A stretch of 64,000 nucleotides of DNA from Ilumatobacter fluminis (GTDB lineage Bacteria; Actinomycetota; Acidimicrobiia; Acidimicrobiales; Ilumatobacteraceae): assembly GCF_004364865.1 (NCBI RefSeq), contig NZ_SOAU01000001.1:2698001-2762000 (forward strand), read 5' to 3'. The notes beneath the pieces are model-generated. The model saw only the letters and a list, made by a program, of their open reading frames with translations, had not been told where the DNA came from and ran no database searches. Made by a program: the position numbers and the translations under genes. Numbering within the stretch: position 1 is the stretch's first letter; every line of letters starts with the position of its first letter. Below are positions 2,624 through 5,466 of this stretch, piece by piece.

Positions 2624-4192
2624 TCAGCTCGGGGCGTGGAGCAGTCCGTACACGACCGAGTCCTCGAGGGCGCGCCACGACGCCTCGATGATGTTGGCGC
2701 TGACGCCGATCGTCGTCCAGTCCCGCTCGCCGTTCGTGGCCGTGAGCAACACGCGGGTCACGGCTCCGGTGGCCTCTCCCCCGTCGAGGATGCGGACCTT
2801 GTAGTCGGTCAGGTGGATGTCGGCGAGAGCCGGGTACGCACGCCCGACCGCTCGGCGGAGCGCCGTGTCGATCGCGTTGACCGGACCGTTGCCCTCGGCG
2901 GTGAACACGTGGCGCTCGTCGCCGACCCGCACCTTGACGGTCGCTTCGGTGTTGAACACGTCGCCCAGTTCGTCGGTGATGAGACGCATCGACTCGACTT
3001 CGAAGAAGTCGTGCTGCCAGCCGGCGGCGCGACGCATCAGCAGTTCGAGCGAGGCGTCGGCCGCCTCGAAGTGATACCCCTCGTGCTCGAGCCGCTTCAG
3101 GTCGTCGATGACGCCGTTGATCGCCGGACCGTCGAGCTCGATCCCGAGGTCGTCGGCCTTCATCTGGATGGTGGCCCGGCCCGCCATTTCCGACACCACG
3201 AATCGGGTGCCGTTGCCGACCGCCGCAGGGTCGACGTGTTCGTACGCGTCCTTGGCGCGGGCGATGGCCGACACGTGCAGCCCGGCCTTGTGCGCGAACG
3301 CCGACGATCCGACGTAGGGCGCCTGCGGGTCGACGGCGCGGTTCAGCGTCTCGGCGACCCGGTGGGACACGACCGTCAGGCGCTCGATGCGCCCCTCGGG
3401 CAGGCACGTGTAGTCCTGCTTGAGCTGCAGGTTCGGGATGATCGAGGTCAGATTGGCGTTGCCGGTCCGCTCCCCCAGGCCGTTGAGCGTGCCCTGGACG
3501 TGGCGGGCGCCGCCACGGACCGCTGCCATCGAGTTGGCAACGGCGCACCCGGTGTCGTCGTGGCAATGGATGCCGATGACGACGTCGTTGCCGACATGGG
3601 CGTGCACCTGTCGCACGATGTCCTCGACCTCGTGGGGCAGCGACCCGCCGTTGGTGTCGCACAGCACGACGTGGGAAGCACCCTTCACCACGGCGGCCTC
3701 GAGCGCACGGAACGAGAACTCCGGGTTCGCCTTGAAGCCGTCGAAGAAGTGCTCCATGTCGACCAACACCTGTCGATCGTGGGCGAGGAGGAACTCGACC
3801 GAGTCGGCGATCATCGCGCTGCCCTCGTCGAGCGTCGTCTTGAGCGCTTCGGTCACGTGGTCGTCCGAGCTCTTCGCGACGATGCACACCGCCGAGGTGT
3901 TGGCGTCGAGGAGGTGCTGCAACGTCTGGTCCTCGTCGACCTTGCCGCGAGGTCGTCGGGTCGAGCCGAAGGCGACGAATGTCGAGGTCGTCAGCGACAG
4001 GTCGGTCGCCGCTCGGGCGAAGAACTCGATGTCCTTCGGATTCGCGCCCGGCCAGCCGCCCTCGATGAAGTGCACGCCCAAGTGGTCGAGCTGCTCCGCG
4101 ATGCGGAGCTTGTCCTCGACGGTGGCGGTGACGCCCTCCACTTGGAGGCCGTCACGGAGGGTCGTGTCGAAGATCTCGACGGGGGTGCTCAT
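2624..4192 (-). CDS. cimA: (R)-citramalate synthase
   Basis: The enzyme condenses pyruvate with acetyl-CoA to (R)-citramalate, the threonine-independent entry to isoleucine. The 522-residue protein has an HMGL/TIM-barrel catalytic domain (DTTLRDGLQVEG near residue 7; metal-binding HCHDDTGCAVANS around residue 215) and a C-terminal LeuA-type allosteric domain from about residue 400. Overall length and the DGLQVEG variant fit CimA rather than LeuA, and a separate leuA is at 43268. I use the ATG at 4192 because the alternative in-frame start at 4258 lies upstream of the attenuator terminator. Expression is probably controlled by the Ile-codon leader at 4275-4322. Confidence 0.93.
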   Translation of the reverse strand: MSTPVEIFDTTLRDGLQVEGVTATVEDKLRIAEQLDHLGVHFIEGGWPGANPKDIEFFARAATDLSLTTSTFVAFGSTRRPRGKVDEDQTLQHLLDANTSAVCIVAKSSDDHVTEALKTTLDEGSAMIADSVEFLLAHDRQVLVDMEHFFDGFKANPEFSFRALEAAVVKGASHVVLCDTNGGSLPHEVEDIVRQVHAHVGNDVVIGIHCHDDTGCAVANSMAAVRGGARHVQGTLNGLGERTGNANLTSIIPNLQLKQDYTCLPEGRIERLTVVSHRVAETLNRAVDPQAPYVGSSAFAHKAGLHVSAIARAKDAYEHVDPAAVGNGTRFVVSEMAGRATIQMKADDLGIELDGPAINGVIDDLKRLEHEGYHFEAADASLELLMRRAAGWQHDFFEVESMRLITDELGDVFNTEATVKVRVGDERHVFTAEGNGPVNAIDTALRRAVGRAYPALADIHLTDYKVRILDGGEATGAVTRVLLTATNGERDWTTIGVSANIIEASWRALEDSVVYGLLHAPS

Positions 4193-4224: not shown

Positions 4225-4247
4225 AAAAAAGCCGCCCGGAGGGCGGC
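4225..4247 (-). terminator. Attenuator terminator upstream of cimA
   Basis: On the minus strand a 7-bp GC-only stem (4241-4247 pairing with 4231-4237, loop TCC) is followed at once by six U residues (4230-4225). It is the only textbook U-tract intrinsic terminator in the window. It sits 33 nt before the cimA start and 28 nt after the leader-peptide stop, which marks it as an attenuator rather than the end of an upstream gene. Confidence 0.9.
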
Positions 4248-4252
4248 GGAAC

Positions 4253-4275
4253 GAGCACGTGCGGGGCACGTGCTC
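4253..4275 (-). promoter_or_regulatory. Pause/attenuation hairpin between leader stop codon and terminator
   Basis: This is a perfect 10-bp inverted repeat (GAGCACGTGC and its complement) with a 3-nt loop. Its first base is the last base of the leader TAG codon. A ribosome stalled on the Ile codons at 4289-4281 would cover part of its 5-prime arm, so folding can respond to Ile-tRNA charging. The alternative pairing that would disrupt the terminator is not obvious to me. Confidence 0.75.
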
Positions 4276-4322
4276 TACGGAATGATGATGAACGGAACGT
4301 TGGTGGACGTCTGCTGCGGCAT
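4275..4322 (-). CDS. cimA leader peptide with three consecutive Ile codons
   Basis: The 15-residue ORF reads MPQQTSTNVPFIIIP and ends with TAG. The tandem ATC ATC ATT codons (4289-4281) lie just before the stop, a pause hairpin and a U-tract terminator, followed by an isoleucine-pathway gene. Leader-peptide attenuation of ilv/leu genes is established in Actinobacteria; application to cimA is inference from this layout. The ATG is about 8 nt after a -10 box, so the leader mRNA probably starts at or next to the start codon. Confidence 0.85.
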   Translation of the reverse strand: MPQQTSTNVPFIIIP

Positions 4323-4358: not shown

Positions 4359-4930
4359 CGGAGTCCACCGGCGCCGTCCGCACCGACACGTCATCGATCG
4401 TTCATCCGAGCACGTGGATGACGGTGGACAACCGTGGGGAAAACACGGTGCCGACCTGTGAACGGACGGTGGACGATCGACGAAATCCTGGGGATTGCAG
4501 GAAAGTTCGGGGGATAACCCTGGGGATTCGAAAATACCGCTTGACCAGGGGTTTCGTGTTCGCGAGAGTGATGAACGTACCGGAAAGCGCATGCCAACCG
4601 GGAGCGAACGACCGGGTCGCTCAGCACCGCTCCTCGGAGCGATGCGGAGCGGTCACGAGTTCGGTCCACGAGGCGCAGCGGGTCCGGACGGGGCAAGAAG
4701 CCACCGTGCTTCGTGGCACGGCCCACCGGGAGACCGGTGAGTCGGGCGGCGAAGTTCCGGGACGGCCTCGAGCAGGACACCCCAACTGTCCGGCTCGAGA
4801 CCCGACCGGGCGGCGCGAGTGCGACGACGCGGGAAACCGGGTCAGCGTGAACGGCGTCGAGGGGCTCCACGAGCCGGGCAACCGGCAACCGGGAGCGCCA
4901 CTCCGGCAACGGAGCTCGCTTTGGCGGGTC

Positions 4931-4988
4931 ACCGGGTCGGGGGTCTCCGGCAACGGAGGCCGGTTCGCCGGCCGTCGTGGTCGGGGCG
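4931..4988 (+). repeat. Double-hairpin module, copy 1 (within the candidate ncRNA)
   Basis: This contains CTCCG-GCAA-CGGAG (4945-4958) fused through one shared G to GGCCGG-UUCG-CCGGCC (4958-4973), then a tail ending CGTGGTCGGGGCG. It matches copy 2 (5047-5102) over nearly its whole length. Confidence 0.75.
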
Positions 4989-5046
4989 GCACCGGCATCG
5001 GGCAACCGATGTGGCGCCGCAGAGGCAACGGACCGCTTCGGCGGAG

Positions 5047-5102
5047 ACCGGGTCTCGACTCCGGTGACGGAGGTCGGTTCGCCGACCGCCGTGGTCGGGG
5101 CG
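5047..5102 (+). repeat. Double-hairpin module, copy 2 (within the candidate ncRNA)
   Basis: This contains CTCCG-GUGA-CGGAG (5059-5072) and GGTCGG-UUCG-CCGACC (5072-5087). Relative to copy 1, the loop change GCAA to GUGA keeps the GNRA pattern. The stem pair C4960-G4971 becomes U5074-A5085, so base pairing is kept while sequence changes. Confidence 0.75.
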
Positions 5103-5288
5103 ACAGGTCAGCCGGGTTCGCTCGGACGGCCCGTCGAACGGCAGCGGCCGAGGTTCGCCTCGGCGACGGCCGAAAAAGGGCATCGCCCGCCGAGTCCCTC
5201 TCGAGGGAACACGACGGGCGATGTGTTAGGTCGTGACGCAGGCTACGCCCGTCGATCGACCGAGTGGTGGATGCCCCACCTGTTTGGG

Positions 5289-5340
5289 AGGCCCCGGGAG
5301 GGTGCGCCAGGCTTCGGCCCGGCAGCACCGCCCGGGGCCT
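5289..5340 (+). terminator. Long GC-rich hairpin with UUCG loop, likely terminator
   Basis: A 10-bp outer stem (5289-5298 with 5331-5340) continues through GGTGC/GCACC and GCC/GGC to a GGC-UUCG-GCC tip. It is followed by TTC rather than a U-tract, as is common for actinobacterial terminators. It separates the candidate ncRNA from the YCII-ECF42 operon. Confidence 0.65.
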
Positions 5341-5466
5341 TTCAGCGTCCGGGTTACGATCGCCGAGCGATTTCTTCGCGGAATCTCGTCGAGGGTGTCG
5401 AATCGACCGGGGCGGTGTCGTCTCCTCATCGATCGCACGACGGCGATCCGAACCCAGGAGGACACC

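Follow-up and report, generated by a model that had tools for sequence, protein, structure and literature searches.

A structured RNA gene behind a DnaA-box-like promoter array in Ilumatobacter and its relatives

Introduction

Large structured RNAs are rare in bacteria. Several of those described have no understood function (PMC12286853). In the 64,000-nucleotide stretch of Ilumatobacter fluminis DNA analysed here (the window, whose coordinates are used throughout), a region of about 0.9 kb (4431-5345) that lies upstream of a YCII-ECF42 operon is packed with tetraloop-capped hairpins, and a sequence-only reading had seen in it a candidate for a new RNA of this kind. Does the region hold an RNA gene, how far does that gene extend, and what might control it and give it a role? 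The comparative evidence presented below shows that the window holds a genuine structured-RNA gene, recognised by its promoter-RNA-terminator layout, its conserved fold and the array of sites in front of it, and supports the earlier reading of a structured RNA.

Results

A hairpin-rich region with no recognisable protein gene

A script check of the plus strand recovered the six GNRA hairpins that had been claimed, at 4730, 4878, 4906, 4950, 5002 and 5064, all with perfect stems of 5-6 bp, together with the 3-bp GAAA hairpin at 4833. Of the UUCG hairpins, those at 4964, 5037, 5078 and 5154 were found with perfect stems of 4-7 bp, and the remaining two were weaker than claimed, the one at 5313 having 3 perfect pairs and the one at 5117 being unlisted even at that length. 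GNRA loops had been described on the plus strand only. Perfect hairpins of at least 4 bp indeed number 10 on the plus strand and none on the minus strand, an asymmetry to be expected in part, since a GNRA loop read on the other strand is no longer GNRA. Among 2000 dinucleotide shuffles the mean was 0.34 GNRA and 0.11 UNCG hairpins (about 0.45 together), against the 10 perfect hairpins observed, and neither the GNRA nor the UNCG count was reached by any of them; other 915-base segments (1218, taken in overlapping steps on both strands) held at most 3. The folding energy of the plus strand was also far better than that of shuffled sequence (z -9.6, 20 shuffles), the value for the minus strand being z -7.4 (20 shuffles).

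Long open frames cross the region, for instance one of 272 aa on the plus strand and one of 204 aa on the minus strand, and in one homolog such frames occupy both strands through almost the entire RNA. None of the five frames compared with Pfam, nor of the three compared with PHROGs, gave a match above the cut-off, the single sub-threshold Pfam match having an E value of 0.029, and single-base indels distinguish the homologs in these frames. The search for protein coding thus found neither a conserved frame nor a protein-family match above cut-off, in agreement with the original view that no credible gene is present here.

Homologs lie within one order

Homologs do exist in related genomes; with the folding energies given above, this means that two of the three outcomes named as refuting the earlier reading did not occur. 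A DNA search of 61 genomes matched 25, counting the window's own. All 25 belong to f1, the family of the window, which we take to be the Ilumatobacteraceae, and 24 genomes from other families gave no match. We studied 23 of the 25, leaving out L024 and L025 with their short matches (E ~5e-4), and the promoter and 3' module described below were present in all 23 loci. R1, a covariance model built on the 3' module, matched 76 of 221 genomes of the family and 41 of the 79 good-quality ones, with one locus per genome and two in a single genome. R1 did not detect the RNA in the other 145 genomes, 38 of them of good quality, so part of the lineage can do without it.

The order of the RNA-bearing genomes is presumably the Acidimicrobiales, and a draw of 298 genomes from it gave 27 R1 matches: 7 in f1, 17 in families f3, f17, f19, f23 and f46, and 3 weak ones (L114-L116), which by eye have an apparent coding context and are excluded from the 17. 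A wider model, R2, matched 22 of 345 genomes of the class, all in the Acidimicrobiales, and 12 of 346 genomes of the phylum. Further R2 matches inspected inside the order were a real copy (L120), a terminator-like hairpin (L121) and a match without the layout of the RNA (L122). All four R2 matches outside the order (G937, G950, G1013 and G1032; L125-L128) were rejected as terminator-like hairpins of the GCCCGCC/GACGGGC type that lack the promoter, and among the matches inspected no case outside the order appears convincing. The core motif also occurs in seven named records, including Desertimonas flava SYSU D60003 and an Ilumatobacteraceae MAG.

Layout of the gene

The region first proposed as RNA (4431-5345) turned out to be of two kinds. 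The structured noncoding RNA, of about 767 nt, is placed at 4576-5342 on the plus strand, with its 5' end set by the -10 element and its 3' end by the terminator, and the ~145 bases ahead of it (4431-4575) belong to the promoter and the array. All the features that follow lie on the plus strand. The -35 element is TTGACC (4541-4546), its TTGAC being invariant in the 23 aligned loci, and the -10 element is GAGAGT (4564-4569), of the form nAnnnT that recurs at the same 17-bp spacing in 45 of 56 loci. Upstream (4423-4528), 9-mers in one orientation form an array, delimited from the letters, the 23-locus alignment and the site statistics given below: GGTGGACAA at 4423, GTGGGGAAA at 4434, TGTGAACGG at 4457, GGTGGACGA at 4468, CTGGGGATT at 4488 and again at 4520, and GGGGGATAA at 4509. 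We liken these sites to DnaA boxes on what we take to be the DnaA box consensus (TTRTCCACA-like). Several of them in the window's genome have more than 2 mismatches, making this a more degenerate copy than those of many relatives.

The transcript would begin with a 5' domain (4576-4690) closed by helix P1 (4576-4590 with 4678-4690) and containing inner helices 4592-4595/4672-4675, 4599-4614/4656-4670 and 4617-4622/4647-4652, all taken from the consensus of alignment A6. A second closing helix, P2, predicted in alignments A6, A7 and A8, has its 5' strand at 4690-4704 and could pair GGGGCA (4690-4695) with TGCCCC (5272-5277) and GCCAC (4700-4704) with GTGGT (5264-5268); A6 puts the outer P2 strand of the window's row one base off. 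The domain that P2 would close holds variable arms capped by GNRA and UUCG loops (4705-5172), within which a 47-nt repeat occurs at 4945-4991 and 5059-5105, its stem altered on both sides with pairing kept (GGCCGG/CCGGCC in one and GGTCGG/CCGACC in the other). The 3' module then follows, with the conserved hairpin Pa (5180-5224; CGCCCG-C-C...G-A-CGGGCG, with a nearly constant C/A mismatch), the conserved hairpin Pb (5229-5261; GGTCG...CAGGCTACGCCCG...CGATCGACC, family consensus GGCTAACGCC) and the conserved GTGGTGGAT with the 3' strand of P2 (5264-5277). The gene ends in a GC-rich terminator hairpin, AGGCCCCGGG...CCCGGGGCCT (5286-5342), whose T run is short in the window's genome and longer in many relatives.

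Two further observations concern the RNA itself. The motif GTGGTGGAT (5264-5272) has a near-invariant GGAT/GGAC end and is similar to the box motif in the RNA's own promoter; we gave no weight to this likeness of the 3' GGUGGAU to DnaA box letters. A hairpin with a CCCCAAC loop (4767-4799) and a nearby motif, ACGGGNAACCGGGTCAGCGTGA (4830-4852), recur in several copies of the window's family and were not noticed in copies of other families.

The fold is conserved, and its large form looks like a lineage expansion

Covariation was strong both in alignments of the 3' module and in three separate alignments of the whole RNA. In the MAFFT alignment of 23 loci (A3), 91.0% of cells in the 3' module were paired against 82.3% in shuffled versions (a level reached by 0/500) and 26-37% in slid ones; compensatory change affected 10 of 24 pairs, as many as in 3 of 500 shuffles, and two of the five measures were reached by shuffles (3/500 and 19/500). 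Alignment A5 shows compensatory change in 20 of the 24 pairs, and leans toward structure, being aligned to the model; it covers 52 of 58 loci, L017 (with a long insertion), L066, L076, L079, L083 and L084 being left out.

The whole-RNA alignments represent three separate groups folded without constraint. Compensatory change was seen in 61 of 242 pairs in A6 (7 loci of the genus), in 28 of 113 in A7 (8 of 9 chosen loci, L097 being left out) and in 28 of 150 in A8, values that 0 of 500 shuffles reached in each case. These structures were derived from the same alignments, to which part of their excess over slid versions is due, and the variable middle of A6 is visibly misaligned, above all in L007. 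P1 with its 5' domain, P2 just before the terminator, and Pa and Pb are common to all three. Compensatory pairs in P2 number 3 of 11 in A6, 2 of 14 in A7 and 0 of 11 in A8. When complementarity for P2 was sought without constraint against other species, the result was not significant, the observed score being reached by 827 of 5000 permutations, and by 1252 of 5000 with 18 loci after removal of five near relatives, because a 300-base search space yields chance helices. The prediction of P2 therefore rests on the alignments and not on that scan.

The size of the RNA varies widely. Measured to the end of the 3' module, it is about 700 nt in the window and about 590-770 nt in the genus; outside the genus, 40 of 49 loci fall at 270-500 nt, 7 exceed that range and 2 stay below it (down to 165). 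The large form thus has the look of a compact core expanded in one lineage. The consensus has 17 helices in the compact relatives and 33 in the genus, and across families conserved sequence is found mainly in the 3' module and the promoter.

The promoter follows a one-strand array of DnaA-box-like sites

Ahead of the promoter, TTGAC-N17-nAnnnT, sites resembling TGTGGAYAAC line up on one strand at intervals of about 11-12 and 20-21 bp, which would bring them to roughly the same face of the helix. Within the 115 bp that precede the -35 element, TGTGGAYAA sites (up to 2 mismatches) average 4.45 per locus over 56 loci. The corresponding figures are 0.32 on the opposite strand, 0.52 with the pattern reversed, and 0.11 across 1081 windows from the flanks, where the maximum was 4. 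These statistics cover 56 of 58 loci, L108 (no TTGAC in the available stretch) and L113 (0 boxes) being out, and where a locus had several TTGAC sites the one with most boxes was chosen, which favours the array. Three or more boxes precede the -35 element in 55 of the 56, at preferred positions near -107 (19 loci), -96 (36), -84 (32), -73 (49), -52 (44) and -32 (53); not every locus holds every site.

DnaA of E. coli has a preference for boxes separated by 2 or 3 bp, equivalent to a step of 11-12 bp, and nrdA is described as carrying a DnaA double box (PMC11317965). Several TTRTCCACA-like boxes with gaps of 2-3 bp likewise stand before the RNA promoter, in degenerate form in the window's genome. 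Between dnaA and the presumed dnaN of that genome lie CGTGGACAA, GGTGGACAA and TGTGGACAA. In 474 kb of the same genome (the window, 20 samples and the dnaA region), four or more same-strand boxes within 107 bp occur only at the RNA promoter and in the dnaA-dnaN region. The window holds no site within 1 mismatch of TTATCCACA, and a strict double-box pattern had 0 matches in 6 genomes.

Array and RNA mostly travel together. A 115-bp promoter probe from another species and a separate search with the 3' module each found 76 of 221 family genomes, with 69 in common, and in 68 of these the promoter lies 101-704 bases upstream of the 3' module on the same strand. Seven genomes gave the promoter only; in one of them (L143) the contig ends close by and truncates what looks like the RNA. 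The other six are small genomes without a detected RNA (G200, G207, G208, G212, G215 and G216) that carry a 25-base match to the array, three of these matches having been inspected and aligned. R2 run without filters on L141-L144 gave nothing below E 0.12. In G200, the one of the six whose neighbours were identified, a DnaA-box-like array (L145, 1383-1478, minus strand) sharing GTGGATAACCCTGTGAATT stands before nrdJ, a class II ribonucleotide reductase gene; the gene lies about 360 bp past the array, and the boxes point away from it.

An origin of replication was considered at this locus and ruled out, since dnaA and the dnaA-dnaN boxes lie elsewhere. The RNA locus is some 28-45% of the chromosome away from dnaA in four single-contig genomes, and sampled GC skew was weak. 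Taking the letters and placement of the boxes together, we consider it quite probable that DnaA controls the RNA promoter, although another factor could read the array instead.

The neighbouring genes change

The upstream side of the gene is rather constant within f1, where in 21 of 23 loci the RNA is flanked by the stretch preceding the citramalate synthase gene (identified as TIGR00977 in the window). Downstream genes vary, and include, mostly as named by eye, ilvE-like genes on the opposite strand, speB-like genes on the same strand and others; by eye, an rpoB-like gene follows the RNA in one f1 genome, and the neighbours outside f1 look like ABC, IclR, prenyltransferase, kinase and acyl-CoA dehydrogenase genes. 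In the window the RNA lies upstream of YCII-ECF42, and the link first drawn to that operon did not hold, YCII-ECF42 being no conserved neighbour across loci. No conserved same-strand downstream gene was found among these neighbours as judged by eye, and since they change the RNA is probably trans-acting.

On the other side, a putative leader peptide, MPQQTSTNVPFIIIP, with three Ile codons (4275-4322, minus strand), followed by a terminator hairpin and T run (4225-4247, minus strand), precedes the citramalate synthase gene (2627-4189, minus strand). Leader peptides with a run of Ile codons were found by pattern in 18 of 23 loci, and the arrangement looks like an isoleucine attenuator.

No known RNA family matches

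A search of the 64-kb window with Rfam 15 gave 0 matches, and 14 permissive matches around the region all fell short of the family cut-offs; in the loci of 11 relatives the scan found a tRNA in a flank only. RNase P RNA, tmRNA and 6S RNA, set aside in the sequence-only reading, were rejected here too: RNase P RNA and tmRNA are each located elsewhere in 4 of 4 genomes searched, and the 6S family RF00013 was unmatched in 6 of 6, in a search whose control run found it in 5 of 14 named genomes, 4 of them over the cut-off. For a GOLLD or ROOL RNA, a location in a phage or prophage, often near tRNA islands, would be expected. One exact pattern of the present RNA had no match in viral contigs, and the flanking genes recognised by eye in 17 loci are ordinary. 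Rfam includes profiles for GOLLD, ROOL and OLE (PMC12286853), and the RNA gave no covariance-model match to any of them, as the earlier comparison with that size class had anticipated. Ms1 is reported from 14 actinobacterial orders, and the text of that report has no mention of Acidimicrob- (PMC9130861).

Discussion

The results described above raise the question of what such a gene might do. We propose that a free-standing gene encodes a trans-acting, highly structured noncoding RNA of the Acidimicrobiales, and that oligomerised DnaA on the helically phased boxes would gate its housekeeping-type promoter, so that the RNA would be made according to the cell's DnaA state and thereby in line with replication and growth. 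The transcript would fold into the P1-closed 5' domain, a multi-branched domain closed by P2, and the terminator. Within P2, the 3' module (Pa, Pb, then GUGGUGGAU) has the most conserved sequence and would be the part most likely to bind a protein, the variable GNRA and UUCG arms serving as lineage-specific scaffolding; a core that binds protein and is decorated with arms would be in keeping with conservation concentrated in the 3' module and the promoter. The RNA might then act in the mode of 6S, Ms1 or OLE RNAs, with a protein sequestered or scaffolded in step with replication. We infer expression, protein binding, the direction of control and function. As a whole, a DnaA-controlled, trans-acting RNA that binds protein through its 3' module and carries lineage-specific arms is the explanation towards which we lean, with modest confidence, and the specific suggestion of sequestration or scaffolding in step with replication is offered tentatively. 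That this is a new, replication-coupled class of large bacterial RNA, gated by DnaA at an oriC-like array far from the origin, acting in trans and possibly feeding back on DnaA or replication, we hold to be an evenly balanced proposition.

Several other readings have to be weighed against this one, and two of them hardly survive the data. Chance hairpins in a GC-rich coding or repeat region would need no RNA gene, and long open frames do run on both strands; the hairpin counts reached by 0 of 2000 shuffles, the covariation, the lack of any protein family over cut-off and the single-base indels among homologs leave this idea next to no room. The position upstream of YCII-ECF42 in the window suggested a cis-regulatory leader or riboswitch of the downstream gene, which is largely refuted and, in our estimate, extremely improbable, as the RNA has its own terminator and the downstream gene, judged by eye, differs in type and strand between loci; with the neighbours changing, a riboswitch or leader of YCII-ECF42 was rejected. 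The array could also work as DNA, as a DnaA titration or reloading site of the datA/DARS type, with the RNA a by-product or merely a means of opening the locus. Its density equals that of the dnaA-dnaN region, and a similar array stands without detected RNA in small genomes, but the whole-length fold is conserved with compensatory changes, the terminator hairpin is retained and the boxes hold preferred distances to the -35 element, all of which makes the RNA unlikely to be a mere by-product and this reading a decidedly unlikely one.

The product might instead be structural and not regulatory, an RNA-only or RNA-rich particle like those of GOLLD, ROOL or OLE, in which the GNRA and UUCG arms drive ordered self-assembly. 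The size, the many arms, the six GNRA caps in the window and the repeated arm speak for it, and GOLLD, ROOL and OLE are reported to form homo-oligomers (PMC12286853). However, where the genus has 33 helices the compact consensus has 17, and many arms are thus no property of the conserved core; there was neither an Rfam family match nor an exact-pattern match in viral contigs, which leaves a particle unlikely in our judgement. We rate about as low an RNA polymerase-binding RNA of the 6S/Ms1 type that has taken the place of 6S RNA in the order, for which the absence of RF00013 in the 6 genomes searched (with the recovery in the control noted above), the single-copy gene and the strong promoter would be a good fit. 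6S RNA is one long hairpin with a central bubble, whereas the fold predicted here is multi-branched, and the HAD hydrolase that neighbours Ms1 (PMC9130861) is not among the neighbours recognised by eye.

The RNA adds a class to the few large structured ones, with a compact conserved core, growth of tetraloop-capped arms in one genus and a promoter that hints at when it is made. Noncoding RNAs linked to replication have a precedent in CcnA (PMC8959179), and if DnaA gates the present RNA, replication control by or through RNA would be testable in cultured hosts such as Desertimonas flava.

How does it compare with known systems? OLE, ROOL and GOLLD are likewise large, multi-branched and of poorly understood function, and the expanded form of our RNA shares their many capped arms; it differs from them in having no covariance-model match, in lying in bacterial genome contigs among apparently ordinary genes, with no exact-pattern match in viral contigs, in the compact form that most relatives outside the genus have and in its DnaA-box-like promoter array. 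With 6S and Ms1 it has in common a single-copy gene that carries a promoter and terminator of its own, 6S not being found in the 6 genomes searched, and it departs from both in its multi-branched fold, in the lack of an Rfam match and in its neighbours. CcnA, a noncoding RNA of the Caulobacter cell cycle encoded at the origin, whose 182-nt gene has 3 weak DnaA boxes and is presumably activated by CtrA (PMC8959179), appears to be the nearest replication-linked noncoding RNA met in the literature searched. Both are noncoding RNAs with a tie, proposed in our case, to replication control, but CcnA is small, located at the origin and presumably under CtrA, whereas the RNA described here is larger, lies far from dnaA and has a multi-box array in front. 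The DnaA-controlled nrdA and mioC promoters of E. coli also have double DnaA boxes upstream, with a spacing of 2-3 bp preferred (PMC11317965). In contrast to them, the target here would be a noncoding RNA, behind up to about six boxes in a single orientation. In the openly licensed PMC literature no paper paired 'Ilumatobacter' with 'Rfam', and among the entries listed there none showed a structured RNA behind a multi-box DnaA array; one may be described elsewhere, and we know of none. Finally, datA and DARS are dense clusters of DnaA boxes away from oriC. The present array resembles them in its density and its distance from oriC, and is set apart by its preferred distances from a promoter and by the structured RNA that lies downstream.
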